22,341 nt of DNA, from positions 1-22,341 of IMG/VR virus record IMGVR_UViG_3300025767_001019; one strand, given 5' to 3'. Shown piece by piece: positions 1 to 21,868 of this stretch. Position 1 is the first letter of the stretch; each line of letters begins with the position of its first letter. The DNA is from a virus. The notes beneath the pieces were generated by a model, which was given only the letters and a program-made list of their open reading frames with translations, was not told the origin of the DNA and made no database searches. The position numbers and the translations under genes are program-made.

Positions 1-233
1 TGCGGATACTCCTTACGCATTAGTCTAAGATACTTTATTTCACGTTCAAACTTTTCATCCATCAAACTGGGGTCAACTACTTGATTATGCCCTCCGTGAT
101 ATCCTTCATCGTTATAGTACCATTGACAAAACTGTTGTTTGTCATCACTAATAAGACTAGTGTAAATCAAATTGTTTCTACAAAGTCCTTTGCCTGGAAC
201 GTTGTTATAATAATATGAAAAATTAGTGTTCAA
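1..233 (-). CDS. 5' fragment of an unrecognised gene, probable TTG start
   Basis: An open minus-strand frame runs 77 codons off the left edge of the window without a stop. The translation begins MNTNFSYYYNNVPGKGLCRN and later carries YYNDEGYHGGHN and an acidic/basic helix-like stretch (MDEKFEREIKYLRLMRKEYP). No ATG occurs before codon 58, and the only early start is TTG at 233-231. An AAGG lies about 9 nt upstream, inside the end of the methyltransferase gene, so the two genes overlap by 11 bases and are probably coupled translationally. The composition looks like real protein (aromatic, Gly/His-rich, no low-complexity). The EREIKYL segment loosely recalls the N-lobe of choline/aminoglycoside-type kinases, but this is a faint resemblance and I do not assign a function. 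It is the second gene of the leftmost minus-strand unit. Confidence 0.6.
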   Translation of the reverse strand, partial: MNTNFSYYYNNVPGKGLCRNNLIYTSLISDDKQQFCQWYYNDEGYHGGHNQVVDPSLMDEKFEREIKYLRLMRKEYP

Positions 234-1212
234 AGTTTACTACCTTAATATTTTGTGTTTGTGTTATATTGTAATTATGTGCTGTTTCTGTTTTGATTAA
301 ATGTATTTGCTGATCGTTATATGATAAAATAAAATTACCATCATTAAAATTTTGCTGTATTCTAAATGCGCTGTCTGCATTTATTACTATAGCATATTGT
401 GCAAACGGTCCCCAGTTGTCGCATACATCGGTGTATAACTTATGTTCTTTGTATTCCATACCTGTTCTAAATATAAACAAGTAATTTTTAGTAGACTCTA
501 AATCTATACTCCAGTCTATTTTAGTTTCTAAAGATACAGGATTATTAATATCTATGTTATAGCCTTGTTCTGGTTTTCGGTTATAATGTATATCACAAAC
601 GTCTAGTACTTGACTTAGATTATTAAATGTTAACCCGTGTAAGCCTGGTGTTAATTTTACTTCTTTTTTGTTTAATATTTTGTTAATTGTTTTAGAAAAA
701 CGTTCGTCGATAGCAATACCTGGATTGCATATACTGTTGTCGTTAGTAAGTAATCTTTTAGCATAGTTATCACTGATCTCAATTGCATGCACTTCTAAAA
801 AATATTTGTTGGGAATAATTTCTGGTAATGTACTGTCAATTACATTAAGTAATGATTCTCCCCAAAGAGTGTGATTGATTGTTTCTGTAAAAATGCAATC
901 AATATTGGTATGTTGACTTATTTTATCTGCTGTAAATTGACCACTTATCAAAGTAATTTTATTTTGTAAGCCTAAACTCTTAATTATTTCGACGCCTAAA
1001 TTATATGTATCTTCCATTTCTTCGTATGCAACTATTGATTTTGCTCCGTGTTCTAATGCAAGTAAAGAAAGTATGCCTGATCCAAACCCTATCTCTAAAC
1101 AATGTTTACCCTTAACGTCTTGTAATATATTCTTATAAAATTTATTACGCAACACGTCATTAATCATGGGTAACCCATATTTGAGGTGTAAATATTCAAA
1201 AGTTGTATTCAT
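223..1212 (-). CDS. PRMT-like SAM-dependent methyltransferase
   Basis: A 329-aa class I methyltransferase. The SAM-binding motif I is LEIGFGSGILSLLALEHGAK at residues 39-58, followed by VAYEE (residues 61-65), where an acidic residue normally binds the SAM ribose. After this comes FTETINHTLWGESLL. Its two glutamates, E110 and E119, are nine residues apart, the same spacing as the double-E loop of protein arginine methyltransferases (PRMT1 E144/E153). The following segment, with IIPNKYFLEVHAIEI, fits the PRMT link to the C-terminal barrel, and DNWGPF near residue 265 could stand for the THW loop. Inference: it methylates a guanidino or similar group on a protein or small molecule. It is the first gene of a minus-strand unit, with a late-type octamer (GGTAAGTA) 5 nt before the ATG and no Shine-Dalgarno site. 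A small-molecule methyltransferase of the same fold is the main alternative. Confidence 0.72.
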   Translation of the reverse strand: MNTTFEYLHLKYGLPMINDVLRNKFYKNILQDVKGKHCLEIGFGSGILSLLALEHGAKSIVAYEEMEDTYNLGVEIIKSLGLQNKITLISGQFTADKISQHTNIDCIFTETINHTLWGESLLNVIDSTLPEIIPNKYFLEVHAIEISDNYAKRLLTNDNSICNPGIAIDERFSKTINKILNKKEVKLTPGLHGLTFNNLSQVLDVCDIHYNRKPEQGYNIDINNPVSLETKIDWSIDLESTKNYLFIFRTGMEYKEHKLYTDVCDNWGPFAQYAIVINADSAFRIQQNFNDGNFILSYNDQQIHLIKTETAHNYNITQTQNIKVVNFEH

Positions 1213-1217
1213 ATTAA

Positions 1218-1225
1218 TACTTACC
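1218..1225 (-). promoter_or_regulatory. Late-type promoter octamer of the PRMT-like gene, leaderless geometry
   Basis: The minus strand reads GGTAAGTA, then five bases (TTAAT), then ATG. It has one mismatch to the GATAAGTA form seen at 4288-4295. The spacing is the same as at the other leaderless island promoters. It sits back to back with the plus-strand octamer at 1227-1234, one base apart. The mismatch makes it the weakest member of the set. Confidence 0.5.
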
Positions 1226-1226
1226 G

Positions 1227-1234
1227 AATAAGTA
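1227..1234 (+). promoter_or_regulatory. Late-type promoter octamer AATAAGTA, leaderless geometry
   Basis: AATAAGTA is followed by TATGT and then the ATG at 1240. No Shine-Dalgarno site is present. T4-family late octamers occupy about -13 to -6, so a 5-nt spacer puts +1 on the A of the ATG. The 14-base block 1221-1234 (TTACCGAATAAGTA) is almost the same as 4283-4295 (TTACCGATAAGTA). Confidence 0.65.
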
Positions 1235-1239
1235 TATGT

Positions 1240-2055
1240 ATGATAAAAGGTATTGGCGGGAAAAAATATATTGATCTAGATCCGCACCTAGATATTGAAG
1301 GGTTTCGCAATTTGCACCCAGAAATATGCAAAGGCTTTGCACTAGCAAGAGACTATGCAAAAGAAGGCACATGGATGGCACCAGGGTTTGAATGGAAAGA
1401 TAGTAGTTACATACTAGACTGGAAGCCTATATATAAAGCATGGGACGAGTATCAAGCATTACCTGATAACGATCCTATTAAAATTGAAGGTAATAAAATA
1501 TTGCCTACAGATTTTAGCGATTATAAACAGCGTAATATTTTTACACGTTACTTAAAAACTACACTAGGAGCAAACGATCCATACATATATTATTTTTTAT
1601 GGAACGAAGGTGACTGGAACGAACGTAGTGCCGAACGACAAAAAACGCAAGAAGCAAGTTATTTTCCAGGCGTAGTTGAGTGGGTAGAAAATTTGCAAAC
1701 ACAAGGCATTATTGATCGGATAGGCAGAGTTATATTTTTTCATTGCGATCATAATGGCAGAGCTTTTGAACATAGAGACTTAGATGCCGATAATGGAGTA
1801 CACGATGATAAACAATATAGTCCGCACAATGATGAATTCATACATATACGCTTTCGCACAAAGAGAGGCTTTTATATTTGGGATCCCGAGTCCCAGAATA
1901 AACACTACCTCAACTGTAATGCAGCCTTTTGGAATGACCAAGATTGGCACGGCGGAGAAGAGTCAAAAGAAGTTGAATACGGATTACGAATAGATTGTAA
2001 ATTTTCCCAAGAATTTAAAAAGATCTTAGGCATTGATCATCTAGAGCATTACTAA
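1240..2055 (+). CDS. Putative Fe(II)/2-oxoglutarate oxygenase, 271 aa
   Basis: The C-terminal half has the order expected of a double-stranded beta-helix dioxygenase. An iron-binding H178-x-D180 lies in FEHRDLD after a hydrophobic strand (RVIFFHCDHNG). A distal H237 is in DWHGGE, and R250 in YGLRID is about 13 residues later, as for the 2-oxoglutarate carboxylate ligand. The N-terminal 100 residues are rich in Trp and acidic residues and match no family I recognise. At 271 aa it is longer than the minimal oxygenase next door. It heads a two-gene plus-strand unit and shares one base with the next gene (TAATG). The promoter octamer is 5 nt before the start and there is no Shine-Dalgarno site. 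The substrate is unknown. The family assignment rests on motif order, not on overall similarity. Confidence 0.65.
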   Translation: MIKGIGGKKYIDLDPHLDIEGFRNLHPEICKGFALARDYAKEGTWMAPGFEWKDSSYILDWKPIYKAWDEYQALPDNDPIKIEGNKILPTDFSDYKQRNIFTRYLKTTLGANDPYIYYFLWNEGDWNERSAERQKTQEASYFPGVVEWVENLQTQGIIDRIGRVIFFHCDHNGRAFEHRDLDADNGVHDDKQYSPHNDEFIHIRFRTKRGFYIWDPESQNKHYLNCNAAFWNDQDWHGGEESKEVEYGLRIDCKFSQEFKKILGIDHLEHY

Positions 2056-2543
2056 TGAAATATGTCGGTAACTGGAAACATAGAATACATCCTGGGTTGC
2101 GTCAACGTGTTTTAGATACACAAGGGCAAGCAAGACCAAGAGACTGGCCCCCTGCATTTGCTGTAGAAAGCGATGAATACAAACGTGCCGAAGAAGCAGG
2201 ATATGATCTTACACAAGTACATTGGTGGGTTTATGAAGAACAAAATTTAGGTCCATTGTTGTTGCCTTTAGAAAATAAATGTCACTGGTGGTTAACTAAA
2301 CTATACCCAGGTCAATTTATGCCTATGCATAGTGATCCGCATACACACGAACGTCCTTGCAACCGATATTGGATACCTTTACAAGATTTTGAACCAGGAC
2401 ATGTTTTCATTTATAAAGATAAATTGATAAAAGATTATAAAGAGCTCGATGTGTTTAAATATGAATCTAGTACAGATTTACACGGAGCCGCAAACATTGG
2501 ACATACCCCAAGGGTAATATTACAAGTTACTGAATTTCTATAG
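2055..2543 (+). CDS. Aspartyl/asparaginyl beta-hydroxylase-like oxygenase
   Basis: A compact 162-aa protein with the full set of Fe(II)/2-oxoglutarate ligands: H92-S-D94 in MPMHSDPH, H143 in DLHGAANIG and R153 in TPRVILQV, ten residues after the distal histidine. This spacing is typical of the aspartyl/asparaginyl beta-hydroxylase branch. The N-terminal part (many Trp, Pro and Arg residues) probably builds the substrate side. Its start codon overlaps the stop of the preceding oxygenase gene (TAATG), so translation is probably coupled. Its 3' end overlaps the convergent radical SAM gene by 17 bases. It may hydroxylate a side chain of a peptide or a free amino acid. The sequence does not say which. 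Confidence 0.78.
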   Translation: MKYVGNWKHRIHPGLRQRVLDTQGQARPRDWPPAFAVESDEYKRAEEAGYDLTQVHWWVYEEQNLGPLLLPLENKCHWWLTKLYPGQFMPMHSDPHTHERPCNRYWIPLQDFEPGHVFIYKDKLIKDYKELDVFKYESSTDLHGAANIGHTPRVILQVTEFL

Positions 2544-3540
2544 TATCTATTGTATACTTTTTAAATTTAGGTAATACTTCCTGTTCTACTTTTTTGACAT
2601 CGATATTGTTTTTAGGACACATACTACATTCGTCTATATGACAATATATATTTTCCATCATATCATCTATAGTTTCAGGTGTACACTTAGTTAAGTCCAG
2701 TGGTTCATAGTTTAAATATTTTTGCCAATCCGGATCATCTAAACTATCATACCTTTCTAACATTGTTTCCAATGTGCCTAACGCAGCACATTTATATATT
2801 TTTCTGTCTCTAAGTAAAGCACAAAACCCACTAGGACAACTATTCCAATAAGATTGTTTTGGATCATCGGATTCAAAAGGTTTAGGTATTCCGTCTACCC
2901 ATTTTGTAATACTTTTAAAGTAAGGCGATTCTATATAGTATATGCCGTACCCATCGCCAATCCAGCCACGGTCGTTGCCGTCAAGCATGTCATATGAAAA
3001 GTCTAAGGTGTTCATGTGTGTGATCCATTCTTGACCACCTGCTTTCATGTCAATAACTTTTTCCCACCAATCAGTAGCGGTCGCCTCTGTAGTTAATTCT
3101 AAACGCCTTGCAAGTTCTTCAGTGTTTGCAATTACTTTTTCGGAATAAGTTTTATCTACAAACTCTGGAAAATGATTACATACTTGAACCATTAAATTAT
3201 ATTTTTTTGTAAGGTATACAACCTTATCCATATTGTCTTTACGATCTAGTAAAGAACCATTTGTAGGAAAGAATATTGTTGCTGTAGGTTCTAGTGTTCT
3301 AAGGTATGCAATTATTTCATGTACTTTGTCAAGATACAGTAACGGCTCACCACCTAGTATTCCCCAAATATTTACATTAAAGTTTTTGTGTGCAAGGTAT
3401 ATACTTTCTTTAATTTCGTCCATCTCTGGATCTAATACACCTTTACCACGTATGTGATCACTTCTAGTGTCACACTGATTACACGCCAAGTTGCACTTAT
3501 TACCATAAAATATATCTAATATTTTAATGTCTCTTTTCAT
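2527..3540 (-). CDS. Radical SAM enzyme with C-terminal auxiliary-cluster cysteines
   Basis: The N-terminus carries C16-x3-C20-x2-C23 in NKCNLACNQCD, which binds the SAM-reducing [4Fe-4S] cluster. GILGGEPLL follows near residues 60-68, the GGEP motif of radical SAM barrels. The C-terminal third has C-x4-C-x10-C (CPSGFC...IYKCA) and, after about 55 residues, CHIDECSMCPKN. This SPASM/twitch-like pattern suggests at least one auxiliary iron-sulfur cluster. The same pattern recurs in the radical SAM genes at 4301 and 9774. The 337-aa length is normal for such enzymes. It is the second gene of a minus-strand unit, overlapping the upstream oxygenase gene by 17 bases. An AGGA lies 6 nt before the ATG. 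The reaction is unknown; peptide or small-molecule modification is the usual role of the type. Confidence 0.85.
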   Translation of the reverse strand: MKRDIKILDIFYGNKCNLACNQCDTRSDHIRGKGVLDPEMDEIKESIYLAHKNFNVNIWGILGGEPLLYLDKVHEIIAYLRTLEPTATIFFPTNGSLLDRKDNMDKVVYLTKKYNLMVQVCNHFPEFVDKTYSEKVIANTEELARRLELTTEATATDWWEKVIDMKAGGQEWITHMNTLDFSYDMLDGNDRGWIGDGYGIYYIESPYFKSITKWVDGIPKPFESDDPKQSYWNSCPSGFCALLRDRKIYKCAALGTLETMLERYDSLDDPDWQKYLNYEPLDLTKCTPETIDDMMENIYCHIDECSMCPKNNIDVKKVEQEVLPKFKKYTIDTIEIQ

Positions 3541-4261
3541 ATTGTTTCCTGTAACTGTTTGCTACTAAATCTATAAAGTCCATTTTTCTACTACCGGGTA
3601 TTCCGTGAGCAATCAAATGTGTTCTTGTGTGTAGACTATTATTTATAACGCTATGATAGTTGCGTATATTAATAATAAATGCTTTACCTGCACTAAACGG
3701 AACAACGCCATGGCCTTCTAAAGTCATCTTGCACATAGGAGGGTGTGTAATTGCTATATTAATAGGTACACCAAAGTCCAACATATCTATGCCTTCTTCA
3801 CCTGGTAGTCGTCCTGGAGCGTCACTGTGTGGACTTATCTGTCCATTAGACTCTAGTTCCATAAACCGTATACGTCTGTAACGTTCATATGGAAATTCTT
3901 CCCAAAAACTTTTTATGTTAGGAGTATGTTCACTTAGGCTAGTCCACTTATAAGGAACATCATCTTCCGTTGTCCAATCTCCGTAGTTAGTCCATGCACC
4001 TGTTTTATCAACATCAATACCATGTATGCAAGTACTATTCCACCCAGGATGATCATCGCCTCTATGACTAACATAGTTTGCAGACTTTGCTTCACTTGCC
4101 CATAACTCGTATGGAATATCAATATCAAGTTCTAACCAAGCAAAGTTACTTTTGTTTAATAACCAACTTGCAATGTCATAGTTAGTTGTAAGATAACTAG
4201 GTGCTTCGGGTAATGTTGCATTAAAGTCTTTGTTAGCATTATAGAAATCTAAGGCATTCAT
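3524..4261 (-). CDS. Aspartyl/asparaginyl beta-hydroxylase-like oxygenase, 245 aa
   Basis: Fe(II)/2-oxoglutarate ligands are all visible: H145-S-D147 in ISPHSDAPGR, H203 in RNYHSVIN and R213 in HTRTHLIAHG, ten residues after the histidine. The core FMELESNGQISPHSD followed by VPINIAITHP is characteristic of the aspartyl/asparaginyl hydroxylase branch. I chose the ATG at 4261-4259 over one two codons upstream at 4267. The upstream ATG overlaps the last base of the late octamer GATAAATA, and the inner ATG is exactly 5 nt after that octamer, as in the other island genes. There is no Shine-Dalgarno site. It is first in a two-gene minus-strand unit with the radical SAM gene that follows. The pairing suggests a shared substrate, but this is inference. 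Confidence 0.78.
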   Translation of the reverse strand: MNALDFYNANKDFNATLPEAPSYLTTNYDIASWLLNKSNFAWLELDIDIPYELWASEAKSANYVSHRGDDHPGWNSTCIHGIDVDKTGAWTNYGDWTTEDDVPYKWTSLSEHTPNIKSFWEEFPYERYRRIRFMELESNGQISPHSDAPGRLPGEEGIDMLDFGVPINIAITHPPMCKMTLEGHGVVPFSAGKAFIINIRNYHSVINNSLHTRTHLIAHGIPGSRKMDFIDLVANSYRKQYEKRH

Positions 4262-4266
4262 AAACA

Positions 4267-4274
4267 TATTTATC
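4267..4274 (-). promoter_or_regulatory. Late promoter octamer GATAAATA, leaderless geometry
   Basis: The minus strand reads GATAAATA, TGTTT, ATG. The octamer is identical to the ones in front of the fibre gene (15317-15324) and the small gene set (20088-20095), which have leaders of about 28-35 nt. Here the spacer to the ATG is only 5 nt. It lies 13 bases from the divergent octamer at 4288-4295. Confidence 0.72.
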
Positions 4275-4287
4275 TGCGTATATTACC

Positions 4288-4295
4288 GATAAGTA
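4288..4295 (+). promoter_or_regulatory. Late-type promoter octamer GATAAGTA, leaderless geometry
   Basis: GATAAGTA is followed by CTAGT and the ATG at 4301, a 5-nt spacer, with no Shine-Dalgarno site. It is preceded by TTACC, the same as at the promoter of the 1240 gene. It would drive the long plus-strand unit of five coupled genes up to about 8716. Confidence 0.68.
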
Positions 4296-4300
4296 CTAGT

Positions 4301-5143
4301 ATGATACACATCTCACACCTTGAATGGCACGTTGCACATGCATGTAATTTTACTTGCGAAAACTGTTGTCATTTTTCTAATCACGGGCATAGTGTTCCTG
4401 TGACCTATGAAGAAATAAGTGAATGGTACGATAGTTGGGCGCACAGAATAGCACCAGCAACAATTGACATACTAGGTGGTGAGCCTCTACTTAACAAACG
4501 TATTTGTGATATTGTAGAGCTTACACGTAAGAAATGGGATAAGCCTAGTTTAGAAAGACTTGACATAACAACTAATGGTGTGCTATTATATAAGTATCCT
4601 GACCTTCCAAAGGTACTTGCTGATAATAATTGCGGATTAAAAATATCCAAACATGGTACTAATCATGAATATAATGAGCTTTGGAAAGGTATTGAAAACA
4701 TTGCACTGGAGTGGAAAGAGCAATACAATATAAATGTAGATTTTTGGAAATCTGATGTAGTATGGTATAAAATGTATAAAGGGTTTGGTTCTAATATGGA
4801 ACCTTATGAAGATAATGATCCTGAGGAAAGTTGGAATAATTGTATAACAGGACAAGACTGTTGGCAAATACATCAAAACAACTTATATAAGTGTGCTCCG
4901 TTAGCATACTTGCCTATGACAGCAGACACATACAATTTGTCTAGCAAGTGGGATCCCTATTTAAAATATAGAGCATTAACACCAGATTGCACTGACGAAG
5001 AACTACAAGAATTTTTTAATCGCAAAGCGGAAAGTTTTTGTGCAATGTGTCCAAAGAATCCTGAAATATTACATAGGAAAAATGATCCTAGATTAAATAA
5101 AAAACATTATGAAGAACTGCCAGTAAAGGTAATATATGACTAA
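4301..5143 (+). CDS. Radical SAM enzyme with C-terminal auxiliary-cluster cysteines
   Basis: A 280-aa protein with C15-x3-C19-x2-C22 in HACNFTCENC at the N-terminus and DILGGEPLLN near residues 57-66. The C-terminal part holds C-x5-C-x10-C (CITGQDC...LYKCAPL) and later FCAMCPKN, matching the cysteine layout and even the CPKN ending of the radical SAM protein at 2527-3540. The two are therefore paralogues. The protein is short for a SPASM enzyme. It starts a five-gene plus-strand unit and overlaps the aminotransferase start by 8 bases (ATGACTAA). An AAAGG inside its 3' end serves as ribosome site for that gene. Its own start has no Shine-Dalgarno site and sits 5 nt after a late octamer. The substrate is unknown. 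Confidence 0.83.
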   Translation: MIHISHLEWHVAHACNFTCENCCHFSNHGHSVPVTYEEISEWYDSWAHRIAPATIDILGGEPLLNKRICDIVELTRKKWDKPSLERLDITTNGVLLYKYPDLPKVLADNNCGLKISKHGTNHEYNELWKGIENIALEWKEQYNINVDFWKSDVVWYKMYKGFGSNMEPYEDNDPEESWNNCITGQDCWQIHQNNLYKCAPLAYLPMTADTYNLSSKWDPYLKYRALTPDCTDEELQEFFNRKAESFCAMCPKNPEILHRKNDPRLNKKHYEELPVKVIYD

Positions 5144-6056
5144 CAAATATAATAGAGCACATATGCCATTTGGAAATGCGTTTAGTGTTGCTGACGATAA
5201 AGTAATGAACCTATTAGTTCAAGATACAACTCCGGCACTTGCTCTTGCTGATGAAAATATTCATACTAAGTTTTGTAATGAGTACAAAGAATGGATAGCA
5301 ACAACTAATAATAATCGTGTGCTAGGATTAGATGAGTACAAATATGCATGTTATACTAATGGTACTACTGAAGCATTTGATAAATTCTACGCAAAGCACA
5401 GCACAAAAAGATTCCGCTTTTTTAAAGGCGAATATCTTTACCATCGACTAAGTTGCAGGAACAATAATTATGATTGGGAATATATAGAAGATGGCAGGCT
5501 AAACAAAAATGATGTTGTTATAATAAGTTTACCTTTTTCGGATACTGGAAACAAACATAAAGACATGGATTTTATTTTACATAATTGTAGTGCAATGGGA
5601 ATTCCAGTATTATTAGATTGTGCATACTTGGGTGTATGCAATGATATTACATTTGACTTAACTCACAAATGTATTACTGATGTTACATTTAGTCTTTCAA
5701 AAAGTTTGTACGCAGCGCACCTAAGAATTGGTATGCGATTAACTAGAGAAGACGATGACGATCCATTATTTGTAACAAATAAAATTGGATATATTAATCG
5801 TGCATCTGCACACATTGGTAGAAAATTAATAAAGCAGTTTCACCCAGACTATATCTACAATAAGTATAGAAGCCGGCAGTTAGAGATATGTGATATTTTA
5901 GATGTTGAACCAAGTGACTGTGTACTGTTTGGTATAGGTGACGACAAATGGAACGAATACAATAGAGATAGAGACACTAATAGATTAAGTTTTCACAAGT
6001 ACTTAAACGTTAGTGATAATGATGAATTAAGGAATATTGCAGATGAGAAAAGGTAA
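5136..6056 (+). CDS. PLP-dependent aminotransferase-like protein (fold type I)
   Basis: A 306-aa protein, shorter than the usual 350-400 aa. TNGTTEAFDKFY at residues 74-85 fits the phosphate-cup region of fold type I aminotransferases. VLLDCAYLGVC gives D161, the expected partner of the PLP pyridine nitrogen. FSLSKSLYAAHLRIG places K189 as the Schiff-base lysine, followed by R197-x-G, the usual S-x-S-K...R-x-G arrangement. These three elements in order make the family call reasonable. The C-terminal small domain is short. It might act on an amino acid or on a keto group of the compound handled by the neighbouring radical SAM enzymes. An AAAGG lies 6 nt before the ATG. Translation is coupled to both neighbours. 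A lyase or desulfurase of the same fold is an alternative. Confidence 0.7.
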   Translation: MTNKYNRAHMPFGNAFSVADDKVMNLLVQDTTPALALADENIHTKFCNEYKEWIATTNNNRVLGLDEYKYACYTNGTTEAFDKFYAKHSTKRFRFFKGEYLYHRLSCRNNNYDWEYIEDGRLNKNDVVIISLPFSDTGNKHKDMDFILHNCSAMGIPVLLDCAYLGVCNDITFDLTHKCITDVTFSLSKSLYAAHLRIGMRLTREDDDDPLFVTNKIGYINRASAHIGRKLIKQFHPDYIYNKYRSRQLEICDILDVEPSDCVLFGIGDDKWNEYNRDRDTNRLSFHKYLNVSDNDELRNIADEKR

Positions 6057-7311
6057 ACTTATTAATATGGAATGGATGTGCGATTACAACTATTTCACGG
6101 ATGAAGAATTTGACCCAATTAGAACAAAGTTGCTACAAGATCAACTTGACGAAGCAGCTAGTGAAGGTGTAAACGTAGTATTAGGATTATGGTTCTTGGA
6201 TGGGTTTTTACCAATAAAGCGTAAAGATGCTTTTATAAAACACATACAAGATCTAAAAGATTATGCCGCTAGTGTAGGTATTAATGAATTTTATATTGCA
6301 AGTGGACACGGAGAAGACTTTGAAGGCCTTCCTGTTAAACATTATTTCTTTGACAATGTATTTAGAATATGTATGAACGCATATAGAAACTTAATGGACC
6401 GTTTGCCACAAGAATGGGATACTACAAAAGAAAAAGCACTACTACTCGGCGGTATGCCTGATCGTTGTAACCGTATTGGGTTACTAGCAAGATTGTATGA
6501 AGAAGGTATAGTACCAGATAAAGTTGATCATACATTTTTTCCTCCTTGGGCACCATCAGATAAAGTATGGTGCAGAGATTATATAAGAGAAATTTATCCA
6601 GATTGGACAGATGAAAAATATGAAAAGTTTCTTGTAGATTGTGAAAAACGAGTTGACGATAGATACTTAACTTGTATGCCGTGGTACGGTAATTATACTA
6701 CTGAAGAATTTGATAGACCTTGGTACGAAGTTAGAGAAACTGAATGGGTTAAGAATCCTACACTTATTGATTCTAGAGTATATGAAGATTGTTTATTTGA
6801 TATTGTAAGTGAAGGTCCTAACTATTGGGGAACTGGCAATTATCAATTTTTAACTGAAAAGTTTTGGCGTTGTGCTATGCATAGGCGACCTTTTATATTA
6901 GCAGGCTGGCCAGGACAATGGGACTACTTAGAGCAACAAGGCTTTAAAACTTTTGCAGAATATCTACCTATTCCACACTACGGCAAAATTGAAGATGATG
7001 AAGAACGTATGAAGGCTGTAGTTGTAAATGCAAAATATCTATTAGAGAATAGACAGCATGACGAAGATATAGCAAAAGATGTAGAGTTTAATTTCCAAAA
7101 AATTATAGAAAAGAATGAAGCTCAAAAAACTATGTGGAGACATTGGCACGATGACTTATGTATTGATTGGTGGCAACTAGAAGCTCTTATTGTAAATCGT
7201 ATAGGATATTCGGACATTATAATGAACTTACCTGAAGAATACTTGCCTGATCATTTGTATAATCCAACAACAGATGATCCCGCTGAACGTGATTATAAAA
7301 AGGATGAGTAG
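6043..7311 (+). CDS. Probable glycosyltransferase-like protein, 422 aa
   Basis: No catalytic motif can be named with certainty. The best clue is around residues 275-310: FLTEKFWRCAMHRRPFILAG, then WDYLEQQGFKTF. An E-K-x(4-6)-P-F-x(3)-G element followed by L-x(3)-GF-x-TF recalls the C-terminal nucleotide-sugar-binding half of GT-B-type glycosyltransferases and of proteins annotated in large marine phages. The first 200 residues include LLLGGMPDRCNRIGLLARLY, compatible with a Rossmann-like half. Start choice: TTG at 6037, ATG at 6043 and ATG at 6067 are all in frame. ATG 6043 is preferred because AAGGA at 6029-6033 lies 9 nt upstream. It overlaps the aminotransferase gene by 14 bases and ends directly before the next start. 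The function remains open. Confidence 0.5.
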   Translation: MRKGKLINMEWMCDYNYFTDEEFDPIRTKLLQDQLDEAASEGVNVVLGLWFLDGFLPIKRKDAFIKHIQDLKDYAASVGINEFYIASGHGEDFEGLPVKHYFFDNVFRICMNAYRNLMDRLPQEWDTTKEKALLLGGMPDRCNRIGLLARLYEEGIVPDKVDHTFFPPWAPSDKVWCRDYIREIYPDWTDEKYEKFLVDCEKRVDDRYLTCMPWYGNYTTEEFDRPWYEVRETEWVKNPTLIDSRVYEDCLFDIVSEGPNYWGTGNYQFLTEKFWRCAMHRRPFILAGWPGQWDYLEQQGFKTFAEYLPIPHYGKIEDDEERMKAVVVNAKYLLENRQHDEDIAKDVEFNFQKIIEKNEAQKTMWRHWHDDLCIDWWQLEALIVNRIGYSDIIMNLPEEYLPDHLYNPTTDDPAERDYKKDE

Positions 7312-8229
7312 ATGAAAAAGTGTGCGGCATTTTGGAAACATACTAATCTGAGGAATAGCGATAAGATATTTCCTTGTTGCCGTTTTAAAAAACCTGTAGG
7401 TATTTTTGATGGTAATGTTTCTGATATATTGCATAGCGATGTATATAACAAATTAAGAGAAACAGATGTTTCTACTTTGCCTGAGTGTTCAAAATGCATG
7501 TACGAAGAAGACAATGGAAAGAAAAGCCTACGTCAAAAATTTAATGAAACATATGACATGGAAACTATTGGTATAGAATACTTAGAAGTTGGTTTGGACA
7601 ATATATGTAATTTAAGATGTGACGGGTGTTGGGCAGAGTTTAGTTCTAGTTGGTCTGAAAAACAGTTTCCAGACAAGCCAAAAAGTTTTCATATTCGTTC
7701 TGGAAGAGACATAGAACAACTTCCTGATACTCTTAACAAAATATTATTCTTAGGCGGCGAGCCTCTTATGACTACACGCCATTATAAAATTTTACAAAAA
7801 ATAAAAGACCCTTCAAACGTAGAAGTAACCTATAACACTAATGCAACATTCTTGTTGCCCGAGCAACAAATAAGTTTACTCAAAACATTTAAAAAGGTTC
7901 ACTTTATAGTTAGTATAGATGGATACGGAGAACTAAATGATAAAGTACGAAGCGGTAGCAAATGGAGTCAAATATTAGAGTTTATAAATCAAATAAAAAC
8001 TCTTGGATTTAGTATGTCTGTAAACAGTGTATTGCATTTAAATAATTGGCATGGATTTATAGATTTAGAAAAATTTATTAAAGAAATAGATGTAGATTGG
8101 GAAGTTAATATTTTAACATATCCAACACGTTTAGATGTTGCAAACTATAACAATAAACAAGAAGTACTAGACTTAGTAAACAAAACAAATATACCGAACA
8201 AAGAATATGTCATCAACCATTTATCATAA
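7312..8229 (+). CDS. Radical SAM enzyme with N-terminal twitch-like cysteine region
   Basis: A 305-aa protein. The radical SAM motif is internal: C99-x3-C103-x2-C106 in NICNLRCDGCW. It is followed by ILFLGGEPLMT and by IVSIDGYGELND, a typical later barrel strand. In front of it are cysteines in the order C4, C22-C23 and C59-x2-C62 (CSKC). This fits proteins annotated as twitch-domain radical SAM in marine phages, where an extra cluster region precedes the barrel. The end is short compared with such proteins (often 350 aa or more), so the C-terminus may be reduced. The start directly follows the stop of the upstream gene, with AAAAGGA 8 nt before it. It overlaps the next oxygenase gene by 23 bases. 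Confidence 0.8.
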   Translation: MKKCAAFWKHTNLRNSDKIFPCCRFKKPVGIFDGNVSDILHSDVYNKLRETDVSTLPECSKCMYEEDNGKKSLRQKFNETYDMETIGIEYLEVGLDNICNLRCDGCWAEFSSSWSEKQFPDKPKSFHIRSGRDIEQLPDTLNKILFLGGEPLMTTRHYKILQKIKDPSNVEVTYNTNATFLLPEQQISLLKTFKKVHFIVSIDGYGELNDKVRSGSKWSQILEFINQIKTLGFSMSVNSVLHLNNWHGFIDLEKFIKEIDVDWEVNILTYPTRLDVANYNNKQEVLDLVNKTNIPNKEYVINHLS

Positions 8230-8716
8230 TGTGCAAAAACTTGCAATAGAAGAAGCACAGTCGGTAGAAAACTTACTACCGCATTTTACAAATGTACTTG
8301 ATGTTGACGACAGTCCGGATTTAACTGATGTTCATCCTCGTGATAGAAACGATATTAATTTAAATTTTATAACTGTAGACAATACATTATTTCCAAAAAC
8401 ATTTAAGTTATTAGAAACAGTACCTGGATTTATAGATGCAAACATTATTGGGATAGGTCCTCAGTCTCAATTATATACACATGTTGACACTGTAGAGTTA
8501 AAGCCGTACACTGAAATAGACTGGACAAGTGTTTACATTGGAATGTTTGTTCCTAGTTTTAATTCTAAAGAAGTTGCAGTAAAAGTTGGTAATGTAATTA
8601 ACAATCATTCTGACATTATATTATTTGATACACAAATTCCACATAGTGCATGGAATTGGACAGACGAATGGTGGGTATCTATCAGAGTTGCTGTAAAGTC
8701 TAAAACAATGCAATAA
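8207..8716 (+). CDS. Small aspartyl/asparaginyl hydroxylase-like oxygenase
   Basis: A 169-aa protein with H92-V-D94 in LYTHVDTV, distal H146 in QIPHSAWN and R160 in WWVSIRVAV, the order and rough spacing of Fe(II)/2-oxoglutarate oxygenases. The strand before the distal histidine (DIILFDTQIPHSAWN) is typical of the jelly-roll core. It is the last gene of the five-gene plus-strand unit and starts inside the radical SAM gene before it, with only a weak AAAG upstream, so it is probably translated by coupling. Its stop codon TAA (8714-8716) is itself part of the late octamer that drives the following amidinotransferase gene. The substrate is unknown. Confidence 0.7.
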   Translation: MSSTIYHNVQKLAIEEAQSVENLLPHFTNVLDVDDSPDLTDVHPRDRNDINLNFITVDNTLFPKTFKLLETVPGFIDANIIGIGPQSQLYTHVDTVELKPYTEIDWTSVYIGMFVPSFNSKEVAVKVGNVINNHSDIILFDTQIPHSAWNWTDEWWVSIRVAVKSKTMQ

Positions 8717-8719
8717 ATA
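8712..8719 (+). promoter_or_regulatory. Late promoter octamer AATAAATA, leaderless geometry
   Basis: AATAAATA is followed by TTTTT and the ATG at 8725, again a 5-nt spacer with no Shine-Dalgarno site. The octamer overlaps the stop codon of the upstream oxygenase gene, so the amidinotransferase can be transcribed alone. Confidence 0.68.
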
Positions 8720-8724
8720 TTTTT

Positions 8725-9783
8725 ATGCAAATATCAACAAATAATCATTGGGATCCCTTAGAAGAAATTATCGTAGGCATTGCTGACCATGCACGGTTGC
8801 CAACTGTTGACTATAGCACTATGAATATGAGTTATAGCAATCACAATATAGAAGATATAAAACCACTAGAAGGGCCATATCCAAAATGGTTAATAGATGA
8901 AGCAAATGAAGATCTGCAAGGGCTGTCTGATTTGCTTACTAGTATGGGTGTAAAAGTTCACCGTCCCCAAGTATTAGATCATAGCGTAAAGTACAGCACA
9001 CCAGAATGGGAAACAACAGGTTGGTATACATGGTGTCCAAGAGACTTACTATTACCACTAAACAATTTAGTTATTGAAACTCCAAGTTCGTGTCGTAGTA
9101 GATATTTTGAAACTAGAGCGTATCATAATATAATGCTAGACGCAATACGAGATGGAGTTGAATGGATATCGGCACCTAAGCCAATTTTAAAAGATGAGAG
9201 TTTTCAATTTGAAGATATTGACGGCAAGCCTAGTCTAACTAATTTAGAGCCTATATTCGATGCACCTAATTGTGTACGTTTAGGTAAAGATATACTTTTT
9301 CAAATTAGCAATACTGGTAATCATTTAGGCATGCAATGGTTAAAAAATACACTAGAGCCTAGAGGTTATCGTATACATGCAGCTGAACATATTTACAGTT
9401 ATGCTCATATGGATAGTACTATTATTCCACTTGCACCTGGCAAAGTTCTTTTAAATAGTTCTAGAGTAAATCCTAATAATTGTCCTAAAATATTTGATAA
9501 GTGGGATAAAATTTACTTTGAGGATGTTAATGTTAATCCTACTACTGTAGAAGGTCCTGGTAGTATTAGTCCTTGTTCACCGTATATTGGTATGAACATA
9601 CTAAGTGTAGATCCTACAACAGTTATTGTAGGAGAAGATCAAACTAACTTAATACGTGTTTTAGAAAAACAAGGGTTTACTGTAGCAACAATTAGAATGA
9701 GACATGCACAAACACTTAGCGGTGGCCTGCATTGTGCTACGTTAGATTTACGTAGACGCGGCAGTTTACAAGACTATACTTGA
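8725..9783 (+). CDS. Glycine amidinotransferase-like enzyme
   Basis: A 352-aa enzyme matching the arginine:glycine/inosamine-phosphate amidinotransferase family over its length. The start has NHWDPLEEIIVG, the hallmark first strand. The middle has FDAPNCVRLGKDILFQ with D179 and YAHMDSTIIPLAPGKVLLN with H228. The end has GGLHCATLDLRRRGSLQDY with C337. These correspond to the catalytic Asp254, His303 and Cys407 of human AGAT. The family moves the amidino group of arginine to an amine through a Cys-amidino intermediate. All key residues are present, so it should be active. The acceptor (glycine, an aminocyclitol or another amine) cannot be read. It has its own leaderless-type late promoter. Its end overlaps the convergent radical SAM gene by 10 bases. 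Confidence 0.9.
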   Translation: MQISTNNHWDPLEEIIVGIADHARLPTVDYSTMNMSYSNHNIEDIKPLEGPYPKWLIDEANEDLQGLSDLLTSMGVKVHRPQVLDHSVKYSTPEWETTGWYTWCPRDLLLPLNNLVIETPSSCRSRYFETRAYHNIMLDAIRDGVEWISAPKPILKDESFQFEDIDGKPSLTNLEPIFDAPNCVRLGKDILFQISNTGNHLGMQWLKNTLEPRGYRIHAAEHIYSYAHMDSTIIPLAPGKVLLNSSRVNPNNCPKIFDKWDKIYFEDVNVNPTTVEGPGSISPCSPYIGMNILSVDPTTVIVGEDQTNLIRVLEKQGFTVATIRMRHAQTLSGGLHCATLDLRRRGSLQDYT

Positions 9784-10622
9784 AGAACTTTAATTTTCTT
9801 TGAGTTTGAAACTTCAGGCAATTTTATTATTTCGGCCCATGGACAAAACGCACATTGTGATTGCGGCTCTAATCTAGTTTTACTCCACTCTACAAATTCT
9901 TCTACTGTACAACCTAAGTCTTGTGATGCTAACTCTCTGTACTGTGCATCTATTTGAAATGTTTTTGCTAGTTGCGGAAGTAGAGCTTGTCTAGCACATC
10001 TGTAAAAGCGTCCTTCTAAGAAATACATACATTCTCGTGCAATACAATTTGCATGAGCTTGTTCTGCATCAACTAATCTATCCCATGTAAGAACTTCGCC
10101 CGGTTTTGCTATTAGACTTTCTTTATAGAAAAACCATGCTTCAGAAATCTTACCAACCACTGGTCCATCAATACCATTACGCATGTAATAATGTGTATCA
10201 CCATCTTCATGTTGTTCTGTAAATTTTTCATATGTTATATTAGGATATTCTTTTTCAAACCATTCAAACACAGATTTTAAATCAGCAGGCGAATGTGCAG
10301 ATATTTCAAGTTGCCATCCTCTTTCATTCCAGTTACTTGGTATGTTAGATAACTTACGTCCGTTTGTTACTATCCATTTGTCTTTGTGAAAAGGCCAGTT
10401 TATGTCTACTAGTGTCATCCATTCATTTAGATGCGGATTAGTAGTAGGTTCTCCACCAAGAATTGTAATGGTTTCAAAATCAACTTTGCCTTTAAGTTTC
10501 TCTAAATGACCTTCAGGTTTGAAATGCCCGCCCCAATTTAAGTTGTTATAAGTAAAACAACTATCACAGCCGATATCACATGTATGGCTAATATATAAAC
10601 TAAGTTCGGGTAATGTAAGCAC
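9774..10622 (-). CDS. Radical SAM enzyme, probable leaderless GTG start
   Basis: About 282 aa. C15-x3-C19-x2-C22 in HTCDIGCDSC binds the SAM cluster, and TILGGEPTTNPHL follows. The C-terminal third repeats the layout of its paralogues at 2527 and 4301: C-x4-C-x10-C (CIARECMY...FYRCA), then CAFCPW. Start choice: an in-frame ATG exists at 10640, but the late octamer AATAAATA (10628-10635) lies between it and the GTG at 10622-10620. The GTG is exactly 5 nt after the octamer, as in the other island promoters. The ATG has neither promoter nor Shine-Dalgarno site in front. The gene stands alone on the minus strand between plus-strand genes. Its stop overlaps the convergent amidinotransferase gene by 10 bases. 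The reaction is unknown. Confidence 0.82.
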   Translation of the reverse strand: MLTLPELSLYISHTCDIGCDSCFTYNNLNWGGHFKPEGHLEKLKGKVDFETITILGGEPTTNPHLNEWMTLVDINWPFHKDKWIVTNGRKLSNIPSNWNERGWQLEISAHSPADLKSVFEWFEKEYPNITYEKFTEQHEDGDTHYYMRNGIDGPVVGKISEAWFFYKESLIAKPGEVLTWDRLVDAEQAHANCIARECMYFLEGRFYRCARQALLPQLAKTFQIDAQYRELASQDLGCTVEEFVEWSKTRLEPQSQCAFCPWAEIIKLPEVSNSKKIKVLQV

Positions 10623-10627
10623 ATAAC

Positions 10628-10635
10628 TATTTATT
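10628..10635 (-). promoter_or_regulatory. Late promoter octamer AATAAATA, leaderless geometry
   Basis: The minus strand reads AATAAATA, GTTAT, GTG. The 5-nt spacer decides the start codon of the radical SAM gene at 10622. It diverges from the plus-strand octamer at 10674-10681. Confidence 0.65.
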
Positions 10636-10673
10636 GTCATGTTTCGAAAATGTTTTGCTGGTGTGAAAACGAT

Positions 10674-10681
10674 GATAAGTA
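10674..10681 (+). promoter_or_regulatory. Late-type promoter octamer GATAAGTA with a normal leader
   Basis: GATAAGTA is followed by a 22-nt stretch that contains AAAGGA at 10692-10697, 6 nt before the ATG at 10704. This is the only island promoter with a Shine-Dalgarno leader. Confidence 0.6.
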
Positions 10682-10703
10682 TTATTATTAGAAAGGAACG
10701 CAG

Positions 10704-11780
10704 ATGAAGGTATCAAATATTCCAGGACTTGGATCTTTTGGACGCTATATTGATGATGTAGATTTTGACAACCTCACCTCCGAAGAGTGGCTTGAAATTG
10801 GAAAATTACATCTAAATGGTCTTGTAACAATATTAAGAAATGTTAATATTACCAAAGACCAGTTTAATTCGCGTATGCGAGAGTTTGGTCCATTTAAAGG
10901 AACACGAAATTCTAGAGCACATTTTAAAATCAAATACGGAGAAGACTTTGATCCTAAAGACGAAAACGCATTTGATCGGTTTAATGTTACTCCACAAGAC
11001 CGTAGCTATCTGAGCTACAAAAAACACTTTGTAGAACAAACTGAAGGCGGCAACTTCCTAACAAGAATAACAGGACGCAAGGATGAAGATGGTAATGCAC
11101 TTGGTGTTTTTTCGTCTGGTGAATTGCATTGGCATAGTAACGAGTCTAGTGAAATTACATTTTCGCCAGAAGTAGCATTGTTAGGCGGACAACATATGAT
11201 AGGAAGTACAACTGGATTTGTACAGAGTGTTGATGCATACAATGACTTTAGTGAAAGTTTCCGTAGTGAATTAGATGAGATGGTTGTTATACATAACTAT
11301 ATTCCGGGCGGTATTAATGATATTGAACTTACAGACAAAGAAATGGGTAACATGTTACAGATGGAATTTTGTTACCATCCTGATGCAGAAGTTCCTTTAG
11401 TATTAACTAGTCCAGGCGGACACAAAGGCTTGCACTACACAACTAATACAGCAACAGGCATTAAAGGTATGAGTCAAACAGAAAGTGATAAGATCTTTAA
11501 AATTATAGATAATCAAGTGTTTACTGACAAGTACATTTATGACCATAAGTATAAAACTGACAACGAATTATTATTGTTTGATAATAGTGTAACACTTCAT
11601 AGAAGAAAAGATCCCGGACATCCTGACAGAGTAGCATATAGAATACAATATGATCCTTCAAATCTTTTAGATAGTCCTTGGTATCCATTTGATCATTTGC
11701 CCGAATATGCAGAAAGATATAAACAGCAAACACATGAACTAATTCAAACATTAAATATTCAGGATTTTAAATTACCTTAA
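10704..11780 (+). CDS. TauD/TfdA-like dioxygenase with HxN in place of HxD
   Basis: A 358-aa protein. The N-terminal part (NGLVTILRNVNITKDQF near residues 38-54) is typical of TauD-like dioxygenases, where this region precedes a jelly-roll core. The iron site is in GELHWHSNES. By alignment with the TauD W-H-T-D motif the ligands would be H144 and N146, so the usual aspartate is an asparagine. The distal H299 lies in LFDNSVTLHRR, and R313 in VAYRIQYD matches the 2-oxoglutarate arginine. Such enzymes usually hydroxylate small molecules. The Asn may change iron binding or reactivity. It is the first gene of a three-gene plus-strand unit with a good Shine-Dalgarno site, and it ends directly before the next start codon. 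Confidence 0.8.
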   Translation: MKVSNIPGLGSFGRYIDDVDFDNLTSEEWLEIGKLHLNGLVTILRNVNITKDQFNSRMREFGPFKGTRNSRAHFKIKYGEDFDPKDENAFDRFNVTPQDRSYLSYKKHFVEQTEGGNFLTRITGRKDEDGNALGVFSSGELHWHSNESSEITFSPEVALLGGQHMIGSTTGFVQSVDAYNDFSESFRSELDEMVVIHNYIPGGINDIELTDKEMGNMLQMEFCYHPDAEVPLVLTSPGGHKGLHYTTNTATGIKGMSQTESDKIFKIIDNQVFTDKYIYDHKYKTDNELLLFDNSVTLHRRKDPGHPDRVAYRIQYDPSNLLDSPWYPFDHLPEYAERYKQQTHELIQTLNIQDFKLP

Positions 11781-13634
11781 ATGAAAAACGTATACCTCTT
11801 TCAAGTCAATTACCAGATGGGGCATGGACAATATACTAGTCTATGGCTACCTTATAGTGTAGCATCTATATGGGCATATGTCGAACAGTTTGATGAGATA
11901 AAAAATAACTTTCATGTTAAGGATTGTATTTTTAAGCGAGAAGAATTTAAAGACGTAATAGACAGAATGGAAGATCCTGATGTTTGTTTGTTTAGTCATT
12001 ACTTGTGGAATGATAATTATAATCTAGAACTTGCTAAACTAATTAAAGAGCGTTGGCCAAATGTACACATTGTATTTGGTGGCCCGCAAGTAGACGAAAC
12101 AGCAAGTAACTTTTTGTTAGTTAATCCGCATGTTGACACTGTAGTAATTAATGAAGGCGAAGTATCTCTACATACACTTCTTAAAGACTATTTAGAGGAT
12201 GATGTAAAACCAATATACCATGTTGCACGTAGAGTACAACTAGAAGGCTTACCTAGTCCATTTACAGATAGTAATATTCTACAAAAAATAGTTGATGAAA
12301 ATCCTGCAACAAAGTGGGCTACTTGTATTGAAACAAATAGAGGTTGTCCATTTAAATGTAGTTTTTGTGATTGGGGAAGTCTAACACAAAGTAAAATTAC
12401 AAAATTTGATCTTGATAAAGTATACAAAGAATGGGACTGGATAGTAAACAATGGTATTGAATACGTTCATATTGCAGATGCTAACTTTGGTGTGTTCTAT
12501 GAAAGAGATAAAGAAATAGTTGACTACATTGTAAAATGTAAAAAAGATACAGACTTTCCTCATAATGTAAGTGCTACATGGTATAAAAATGCTGCTGAAA
12601 AAATGATTGGTCTTGCTAAAATACTTGAAGATGTAAATCTAAACAAAGGATTTACGCTTAGTGTACAAAGTATGAATGAAGAAACACTTGATAGTATCGA
12701 ACGCAAAAATATGGAAATGTCTAAATTAGCAGACATGTATGCACAATGCGAAAAACAAGATGTAGCATACTATACTGAATTTATTTTAGGATTACCTTTT
12801 GAAACATTACAAACGTGGAAGAAAGGATTATGTGCTGCGGTAGAAGCAGGATGTCATCATCATATTGATATTCACCCATTGGAAGTATTAAAGAATAGTG
12901 CATTTGCTCAGCAGGTAAAACAATTTAATTACGAAGTGTTTACGTTTACTGTTGTAACTAAAAAACAACCTTCTCTTATACCAGAAAGACACAATTATGT
13001 TATTGCTAGTGAATTTATGACAAGACAAGAATACATAGATTCTTGGATGTTTAGTTGGCTAGTACTACACTTCCATCATTATGCATGGACACAACTTCTT
13101 GCTAGATTTGCTCGTAAATATAAAAACCTTTCTTACTTACAGTTCTATGAAGATCTATTTGAACAATGTATAAGCAAAGATCCGTTCTTTATGGATTTAT
13201 ACAATAAACAAGAAGCTGAACTTAAAAGTTTCTTTTGGAATACATCTAGTGATACAGTATTTGACAACGACAATGTAATTGTAGTTCTTAATCAAATAGA
13301 ATGGCACGAAAATAGAGACAAGGTACAACAAATAATATCTGATTGGGCAAGAACATATTTTAGTGATCTTGAAGACGACTTACTTGAAGAAGTAATACAT
13401 ATGAATACACTGTGGGTTACAAACATGGGTAGACATGATGTACATGAAGAAATGTTTGATTACAATATACCAGAGTATATTGTTGGCGATCAGGAACTAG
13501 TAAAACAGCCAGTAACTTATACATTCAGTAATAAGTATCGTTGGCCAAATAATAAAGATTTCAAAGATAAGTTATTCTATAAAAATAGAAACGGCTTTAG
13601 TATACAAAAAATAGAAAGGGTTAGCGATGCCTAA
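11781..13634 (+). CDS. B12-binding-domain-type radical SAM protein, 617 aa
   Basis: The largest gene of the island. Residues 1-150 look like the Rossmann-like cobalamin-binding domain of this radical SAM class: LAKLIKERWPNVHIVFGGPQ at about residues 84-103, then VVINEGEVSLHTLL. The DxHxxG motif that coordinates cobalt in base-off enzymes is not visible, so cobalamin may bind without a His ligand or not at all. The radical SAM motif is C189-x3-C193-x2-C196 in TNRGCPFKCSFCDWGS. It is followed by HIADANFG and by FILGLPFET, usual in this class. The C-terminal 200 residues match nothing I recognise. The gene follows the TauD-like gene without a gap and overlaps the next oxygenase by 8 bases. Methylation or ring rearrangement are common reactions of the class. 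Confidence 0.85.
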   Translation: MKNVYLFQVNYQMGHGQYTSLWLPYSVASIWAYVEQFDEIKNNFHVKDCIFKREEFKDVIDRMEDPDVCLFSHYLWNDNYNLELAKLIKERWPNVHIVFGGPQVDETASNFLLVNPHVDTVVINEGEVSLHTLLKDYLEDDVKPIYHVARRVQLEGLPSPFTDSNILQKIVDENPATKWATCIETNRGCPFKCSFCDWGSLTQSKITKFDLDKVYKEWDWIVNNGIEYVHIADANFGVFYERDKEIVDYIVKCKKDTDFPHNVSATWYKNAAEKMIGLAKILEDVNLNKGFTLSVQSMNEETLDSIERKNMEMSKLADMYAQCEKQDVAYYTEFILGLPFETLQTWKKGLCAAVEAGCHHHIDIHPLEVLKNSAFAQQVKQFNYEVFTFTVVTKKQPSLIPERHNYVIASEFMTRQEYIDSWMFSWLVLHFHHYAWTQLLARFARKYKNLSYLQFYEDLFEQCISKDPFFMDLYNKQEAELKSFFWNTSSDTVFDNDNVIVVLNQIEWHENRDKVQQIISDWARTYFSDLEDDLLEEVIHMNTLWVTNMGRHDVHEEMFDYNIPEYIVGDQELVKQPVTYTFSNKYRWPNNKDFKDKLFYKNRNGFSIQKIERVSDA

Positions 13635-14112
13635 TTACATAACTACTATTCCAAATTTTTGGAAGAAAGATCTAGCTGAACATACCTATGCTAGAAAAGT
13701 AGATTGGTCCGCAAAAAACTTTGATCACTTAGATAAAGGTGACTATAATACTGGCCATTTACTACAAAGTTTTAACGAAGAGTTACCCAATATACAGCAA
13801 TTTAAAGACGTCTTAGACGCTCATACAGCGTCTGTAAGCTGGACTTGCATATTGCCCAATGTCATACTACCAACGCACAAAGACACCTTTTATACGCTAC
13901 GACAGGAGCATAATGTAGAGCTTGACGACTGTTATCGCTACTTAATATTCTTAGAAGATTGGGTGTTTGGACAGTACGTTGGGTTTGAAGATACTAGTAT
14001 AACTAAATGGGGTGCTGGTGATGTGTGGAGGTTTACAGGACACGAAATGCATTACGGAGTAAACGCTAGTGCGTTAAACTTCCATACCTGTCAAGTAAGT
14101 ACGTTTGCTTAG
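13627..14112 (+). CDS. Small oxygenase-like protein with an altered 2-oxoglutarate site
   Basis: A 161-aa protein with H84-K-D86 in LPTHKDTFYTLR and a distal H142 in GHEMHYGVNAS after WGAGDVWRF. This fits the jelly-roll of aspartyl/asparaginyl hydroxylase-like oxygenases. About ten residues after the distal histidine, where the family normally has an arginine for 2-oxoglutarate, the sequence is NFHTCQVS. No arginine is there, and H153 or another residue would have to take its place. The enzyme may therefore use another arginine, bind a different co-substrate or be inactive. AAAGGG lies 6 nt before the ATG, which overlaps the radical SAM gene by 8 bases. Its 3' end overlaps the convergent fibre gene by 4 bases. 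Confidence 0.65.
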   Translation: MPNYITTIPNFWKKDLAEHTYARKVDWSAKNFDHLDKGDYNTGHLLQSFNEELPNIQQFKDVLDAHTASVSWTCILPNVILPTHKDTFYTLRQEHNVELDDCYRYLIFLEDWVFGQYVGFEDTSITKWGAGDVWRFTGHEMHYGVNASALNFHTCQVSTFA

Positions 14113-15316: not shown

Positions 15317-15324
15317 TATTTATC
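15317..15324 (-). promoter_or_regulatory. Late promoter octamer of the fibre gene
   Basis: The minus strand reads GATAAATA, 35 nt before the ATG at 15281. The leader holds GGGAG. This is the ordinary arrangement for a structural late gene of a T4-like phage and serves as the internal comparison for the leaderless island promoters. Confidence 0.72.
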
Positions 15325-16533: not shown

Positions 16534-16541
16534 TATTTATT
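16534..16541 (-). promoter_or_regulatory. Late promoter octamer AATAAATA
   Basis: The minus strand reads AATAAATA about 37 nt before the ATG at 16496, with AGGAGA in the leader. It overlaps the stop codon of the upstream 89-aa gene. Confidence 0.65.
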
Positions 16542-18124: not shown

Positions 18125-18153
18125 ATTATAACAAGATTTCTTGGTGTTGTCAA
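18125..18153 (-). promoter_or_regulatory. Sigma70-type promoter of the VWA gene
   Basis: TTGACA (18153-18148) and TATAAT (18130-18125) are both perfect consensus on the minus strand and are separated by 17 bases. The gene starts about 31 nt after the -10 box. This is an early-type phage promoter read by the host RNA polymerase. Confidence 0.88.
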
Positions 18154-19334: not shown

Positions 19335-19363
19335 ATAATACTACCAATTGGGGGTAATGTCAA
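19335..19363 (-). promoter_or_regulatory. Sigma70-type promoter of moxR
   Basis: TTGACA (19363-19358) and TATTAT (19340-19335) lie 17 bases apart on the minus strand. The ATG is 48 nt after the -10 box. It occupies the 96-base gap between the upstream 130-aa gene and moxR. Confidence 0.85.
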
Positions 19364-20087: not shown

Positions 20088-20095
20088 TATTTATC
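20088..20095 (-). promoter_or_regulatory. Late promoter octamer GATAAATA
   Basis: The minus strand reads GATAAATA 28 nt before the ATG at 20059. The leader contains AAGGT. It sits downstream of the RNase H unit, which has a sigma70-type promoter. Confidence 0.68.
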
Positions 20096-21839: not shown

Positions 21840-21868
21840 ATTATAACACCAAATCTGGCTGTTGTCAA
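21840..21868 (-). promoter_or_regulatory. Sigma70-type promoter of the RNase H unit
   Basis: TTGACA (21868-21863) and TATAAT (21845-21840) lie 17 bases apart on the minus strand, both perfect. The ATG at 21810 is about 29 nt after the -10 box. The -35 end overlaps the last bases before the upstream 132-aa gene stop. Confidence 0.9.

Follow-up and report, generated by a model that had tools for sequence, protein, structure and literature searches.

Late genes of bacteriophage T4 are transcribed from promoters whose octamer covers positions -13 to -6 relative to the transcription start point, +1 (PMC1524935). In the leaderless mRNAs of mycobacteria and other bacteria, the -10 element of the promoter is fused to the start codon, a Shine-Dalgarno (SD) site is lacking, and RTG lies at +1 (PMC4633059). 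Classical leaderless genes of phages lambda and P2 are cited in the same paper. Leaderless mRNAs and T4 late promoters are thus each well known already. In pelagimyophages, late promoters were not found by standard methods (PMC7029224). Here, I analyzed a virus record of 22,341 bases, IMG/VR IMGVR_UViG_3300025767_001019 (the window), in which T4-type octamers stand exactly five nucleotides (nt) before start codons. It is proposed, with a probability of roughly 0.8, that these are gp55-type late promoters fused to start codons, giving leaderless late mRNAs beside leadered ones.

The original prediction, made from the letters of the window, named six octamers of the form RATAARTA, each followed by five bases and a start codon. 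All six were found at the predicted positions and strands, with ATG after the five bases or, at 10628-10635(-), GTG (Table 1). Five of them match RATAARTA, the exception being the one at 1218-1225(-). Of the called gene starts of the window that have an octamer, six have it at a spacing of 5 nt; the spacings 22, 28, 35, 37, 45, 50, and 62 nt are each seen at a single start. The pattern RATAARTA-N5-RTG has 5 matches in the window, whereas dinucleotide shuffles gave 0.29 +/- 0.54 and never reached 5.

The backbone genes of the window place it in the neighbourhood of the T4-superfamily large phages. About 600 stretches in IMG/VR match the window, and 593 were confirmed as relatives. Non-redundant DNA of the window's relatives, with repeated sequence masked, forms the window group (3.36 Mb, 210 contigs, 3,905 genes). 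A second set of 0.61 Mb represents the pelagimyophages (HTVC008M group). The number of nt between octamer and start codon is called k; the fused class has k=5 and the leadered class k=16-36. Spacing counts use NATAARTA, and gene-family counts use NRTAARTA-type octamers.

A scan of related phages had been proposed, and it showed the spacing to be a lineage-wide rule, far above control. In 15 related records, 29 matches to the pattern were among those listed, against 2 for the reversed control. In the window group, NATAARTA lies before ATG gene starts 114 times at spacing 5, 34 times at spacing 4 (20 families), and 7 times at spacing 6. Spacings of 9-15 nt sum to 9, and a second hump follows at 16-36 nt. 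The share of k=5 among octamers at k=0-15 before ATG is 114/185 in the window group (binomial p ~1e-87) and 50/71 in the pelagimyophages (p ~9e-44). These p-values treat homologues as independent; kinship is corrected for by counting families without detectable mutual similarity, of which at least 51 in the window group and at least 13 in the pelagimyophages have fused genes. Thus, the constant spacing was not inherited from one ancestral gene. RATAARTA at spacing 5 occurs 78 times in the window group against a mean of 3.2, ranking 1 of 420 letter permutations. Among the pelagimyophages, a small set, it shares the top rank with several one-base variants because TATAAATA is the most frequent octamer in these phages. 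Hardly any leaders of roughly 1-10 nt occur, as would be expected if two designs work, one with a leader of SD length and one with none. Two further spacing classes were considered and rejected. A RATAAATA peak at spacing 1 comes from an ATG inside a conserved GATAAATATATGCGTA element that opens very short frames only, and hits at spacing -1 are mostly overlaps with fused starts or chance.

Conservation differs among the sites of the window. Homologues of gene 1240 have NRTAARTA at spacing 5 in 33 of 50 distinct upstream sequences, and GCTAAGTA in 6 more. Octamer-like boxes at spacing 5 before genes 3524 and 4301 are kept in homologues down to ~51-66% identity. The site at 1218-1225(-) is the weakest of the six; just three homologues were recovered, and two distant ones have not kept the spacing. 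The octamer at 8712-8719(+) overlaps the stop codon of the preceding gene, and the fused arrangement of gene 8725 is kept in 1 of 15 distinct homologue upstreams, the others looking leadered or coupled. At two sites, the longest open reading frame (ORF) opens upstream of the fused codon, at 4267 and 10640. These upstream start codons are missing from homologues, whose first codon corresponds to 4261 or 10622, those of the latter gene having an ATG in place of the GTG. Thus, the fused codons 4261 (ATG) and 10622 (GTG) are the better starts.

The six fused starts had also been noted to lack an SD site. No SD match of 5 nt or more was found at any start of the 5-nt class in a first survey that included the window, and the 4-nt "matches" are the TAAG within the octamer itself. 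In the window group, the frequency of SD motifs is 4% at fused starts, 73% at leadered starts, and 47% at other starts. The fused codons of this group are 114 ATG, 2 GTG, and 0 TTG (p=5e-18). Gene 1240 is instructive: none of the 40 homologues whose octamer lies at spacing 5 or 4 has an SD site, as against 8/9 homologues without the octamer (Fisher p=2e-8). In two relatives (L370 and L383), the homologue of gene 1240 is now leadered, with AATAAATA ~20 nt upstream and AGGAG, an interchange of the two designs.

Where would these promoters start transcription? The T4 positions assumed by the original prediction agree with PMC1524935 and put +1 on the sixth base downstream of the octamer, which at spacing 5 is the A of ATG. 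At leadered late promoters, the share of purines at this sixth base is 80% in a T4-like phage, 93% in two cyanophages, 66% in the window group, and 74% in the pelagimyophages, and in all four groups it is a jump over the share at the fifth base. This enrichment is consistent with a predicted +1 on the A of ATG. A gp55-like protein is encoded by six relatives (G001, G002, G003, G005, G006, and G012) and by the Pseudomonas jumbo phage PA5oct. Those of G001 and PA5oct match PHROG_12791/234, "sigma factor for late transcription" (E ~1e-78 and 8e-82); the T4 gp55 query sequence was 100% identical to X01804. The gp55-like protein of this lineage has ~280 amino acids, ~100 more than T4 gp55, and the extra part precedes the conserved core. 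NATAARTA/NRTAARTA boxes of the T4 TATAAATA type lie upstream of genes in both the leadered and the fused layouts.

Taken together, I favour the following explanation. The octamers would be T4-type late promoters read by the host RNA polymerase carrying the phage gp55-like late sigma factor. In the window lineage and in pelagimyophages, many of them would be set so that transcription begins (+1) with the first base of the start codon, and the polymerase would then make leaderless mRNAs. Ribosomes would engage the 5′-terminal AUG without requiring an SD site. The same phages also have the ordinary design, a leader of ~11-31 nt with an SD site, and a gene can change from one design to the other during evolution. 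Since a fused unit takes 16 bp, two fit back to back and can serve divergent genes that are just 16-60 bp apart; 80 of the 160 fused starts of the window group lie in divergent gaps of that size. Compactness may be one benefit of fusion. Pairs of octamer-N5-ATG units in opposite directions within ~30-45 bp were seen in the window and in relatives (Table 1).

It had been proposed that the leaderless design serves accessory enzymes and the leadered design structural genes. The left 14 kb of the window is an island of radical SAM, 2-oxoglutarate oxygenase-like, TauD, amidinotransferase-like, and methyltransferase-like genes, and all six fused starts are in it. However, the TauD-like gene of the island (10704) has a leadered octamer, a layout kept in homologues L140 and L405; the island is therefore not uniformly leaderless. 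In the window's relatives, the fused design was found at the terminase large subunit, portal, baseplate wedge, tail tube, and head-tail adaptor genes. Octamers at spacing 5 precede 9 genes of the cultured Pelagibacter phage HTVC008M and 4 of PA5oct. The HTVC008M set includes the tape measure, gp2 end protector, gp48, gp25, a baseplate-like gene, a dioxygenase, and CsgF, and all 9 of its k=5 starts (6280, 7562, 16007(-), 18916(-), 19456, 31132, 49760, 75559, and 142360 of KC465899) coincide with the codon annotated by the depositors. Among gp48 homologues, 20/20 ATG starts are at k=5. Since the fused design also precedes virion genes, the predicted leaderless late mRNAs extend beyond accessory genes, and the proposed division is not supported. 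Both designs do exist, but the choice is made per gene and switches between relatives. The 28-37 nt given for three backbone sites (15317, 16534, and 20088) are correct as spacings from octamer to start but not as leader lengths, and the predicted leaders are ~23-32 nt. No octamer at spacing 5 was found before genes in one T4-like coliphage, the cyanophages S-RIM8 and S-CAM7, or Caulobacter phage Cr30.

Other explanations of the fused octamers should be weighed. The octamer might be a translational or regulatory element, such as an A/U-rich enhancer or an operator, within a longer mRNA from an upstream promoter. Read-through mRNA could cover those fused octamers that overlap or touch the end of a co-directional gene lying upstream, 27 in the window group and 21 in the pelagimyophages. 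However, 112 of the 160 window-group cases lie in divergent gaps without an upstream co-directional gene. The sequence is the T4 gp55 consensus and no known ribosome signal, and the identical octamer also appears in the leadered class, whose starts have SD sites and where it works from farther away, while T4-like and cyanophage genomes with the same octamer have no k=5 class. Such an element is quite improbable. Alternatively, the octamers may be genuine late promoters with a variable +1, yielding very short leaders (1-3 nt) or transcripts that start just inside the gene and use another in-frame start. The sites at spacings 4 and 6 do indicate a one-base tolerance. Yet spacings 2-3 and 7-15 are almost empty, and the fused codon is the first common residue conserved among homologues, so I regard a variable start point as improbable.

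The fused motif could also be a recombination or junction module by which accessory cassettes spread, its spacing being inherited rather than selected. It is frequent at the exchangeable genes of islands and in divergent pairs set back to back. It is found, however, in many unrelated families that include core virion genes, the flanks differ between sites, and the spacing is kept in homologues of just ~55-66% identity; a recombination module is very unlikely. As for chance, an AT-rich genome has many octamers like this AT-rich one upstream of its genes, but neither the count in the window nor the first rank among the permutations in the window group fits this, and a sharp one-position peak recurs in two lineages. 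Chance is already refuted and its probability is negligible.

Several points weigh against promoters that yield leaderless late mRNAs. For the spacing-4 sites, +1 would have to move back by one base. At the sixth base, purines stand out less in the window group than they do in the T4-like phage and the cyanophages. The gp55 gene lies in relatives, not inside the window, which is a 22-kb fragment. A search for the gp45 clamp (PF02916) gave no match anywhere, HTVC008M and controls included, and is uninformative. In a small SAR11 sample, TATAAT-N6-ATG was barely above control, with no clear fusion of host promoters to ATG. Translation of leaderless mRNAs by the host of the window phage is an assumption. 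The leaderless late mRNAs of the original prediction are, as a prediction, strongly supported by sequence statistics: the exact and bimodal spacing, the lack of SD sites, the near-exclusive ATG, the switching among homologues, the gp55 homologue of relatives, and the calibrated +1 position point the same way. In a SAR11 sequence (G029:C1:1-400000), GGAG, AGGA, or GAGG lies upstream of 13% of called genes only, which suggests that this host group makes little use of SD sites.

Other features were noted. The island (223-14112) resembles a small-molecule or peptide-modification cluster; its products include several radical SAM proteins, Asp/Arg hydroxylase-like oxygenases, TauD, a B12-binding radical SAM protein, and amidinotransferase/deiminase-like and methyltransferase-like proteins. 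In the backbone, the MoxR-like ATPase at 18198-19286(-) shares 47% identity with its PA5oct counterpart. Near-perfect sigma-70 promoters (TTGACA-N17-TATAAT or TATTAT) belong to three backbone genes, at 18125-18153(-), 19335-19363(-), and 21840-21868(-), which suggests early or middle transcription by the host sigma factor into ordinary leadered mRNAs. In many relatives, an extended conserved element, GAGATAAATATATGCGTA(G/T), lies downstream of the octamer at a leadered late promoter.

Table 1. Octamers and associated features (window positions unless a record is named).
Feature	Position	Strand	Context
Fused octamer GGTAAGTA	1218..1225	-	5 nt before ATG 1212, methyltransferase-like ORF 223-1212
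Fused octamer AATAAGTA	1227..1234	+	5 nt before ATG 1240, ORF 1240-2055
Fused octamer GATAAATA	4267..4274	-	5 nt before ATG 4261, Asp/Arg hydroxylase-like ORF
Fused octamer GATAAGTA	4288..4295	+	5 nt before ATG 4301, radical SAM ORF 4301-5143
Fused octamer AATAAATA	8712..8719	+	5 nt before ATG 8725, amidinotransferase/arginine deiminase-like ORF
Fused octamer AATAAATA	10628..10635	-	5 nt before GTG 10622, radical SAM-like ORF
Leadered octamer GATAAGTA, seventh of island	10674..10681	+	22 nt before ATG 10704, SD AAGGA, TauD-like gene
Leadered octamer GATAAATA, predicted late	15317..15324	-	35 nt before start 15281, SD present
Leadered octamer AATAAATA, predicted late	16534..16541	-	37 nt before start 16496, SD AGGAGA
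Leadered octamer GATAAATA, predicted late	20088..20095	-	28 nt before start 20059
Divergent fused pairs	4260-4303; 1210-1242; G001 ~20900-20945; G015 ~27520-27570; L057; L087		
Element GAGATAAATATATGCGTA(G/T)	L040 ~9209; L005 ~4389; G002 ~88541(-); ~20 others		
gp55-like protein, predicted late sigma factor	G001:91790-92047; PA5oct 71191-71571	+; +	

It is likely that, in two marine branches of the T4 superfamily, the window lineage and the SAR11 pelagimyophages, leaderless late mRNA is standard for core virion and accessory genes through fusion of gp55 promoters, and that this was missed by searches expecting leadered late promoters. The prediction is concrete and genome-wide: late transcripts of abundant ocean phages, the cultured Pelagibacter phage included, would begin at AUG. 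The fused design may help explain why late promoters were not found in pelagimyophages (PMC7029224). These phages could serve as a natural model for the question of how and why a phage in control of the cell uses leaderless translation. For annotation, the octamer-N5-ATG rule corrects starts misplaced by gene callers, such as 4261 and 10622. My literature searches turned up neither leaderless T4-type late mRNAs nor systematic fusion in T4-type phages, which is weak evidence given incomplete coverage; thus, priority is not certain.

How does this compare with known systems? The T4 late promoters, which are gp55/gp33/gp45-dependent and have the octamer TATAAATA, share with the present ones the octamer, a gp55 homologue (in relatives), a predicted +1 about 6 bases past the octamer, and a leadered class with SD sites. 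In contrast, spacing 5 is the commonest here but absent in one T4-like phage, two cyanophages, and Cr30, and the octamers here are often GATAAGTA or GGTAAATA. Giant phage AR9 was considered as a precedent and rejected, since its 5′ untranslated regions are 26-491 nt long. The leaderless genes of lambda and P2 are likewise phage mRNAs beginning at AUG, but they are isolated genes, whereas here dozens of late genes per lineage, predicted to be leaderless, follow one geometry. The mycobacterial leaderless mRNAs have the same fusion and no SD site; here, a phage late sigma factor is the predicted reader, the phage is of lytic type, and ATG is nearly exclusive. The HTVC008M group has the same octamer-N5-ATG class on virion genes, although its octamer is mostly TATAAATA or CATAAATA with a GTNNT spacer, unlike that of the window group.

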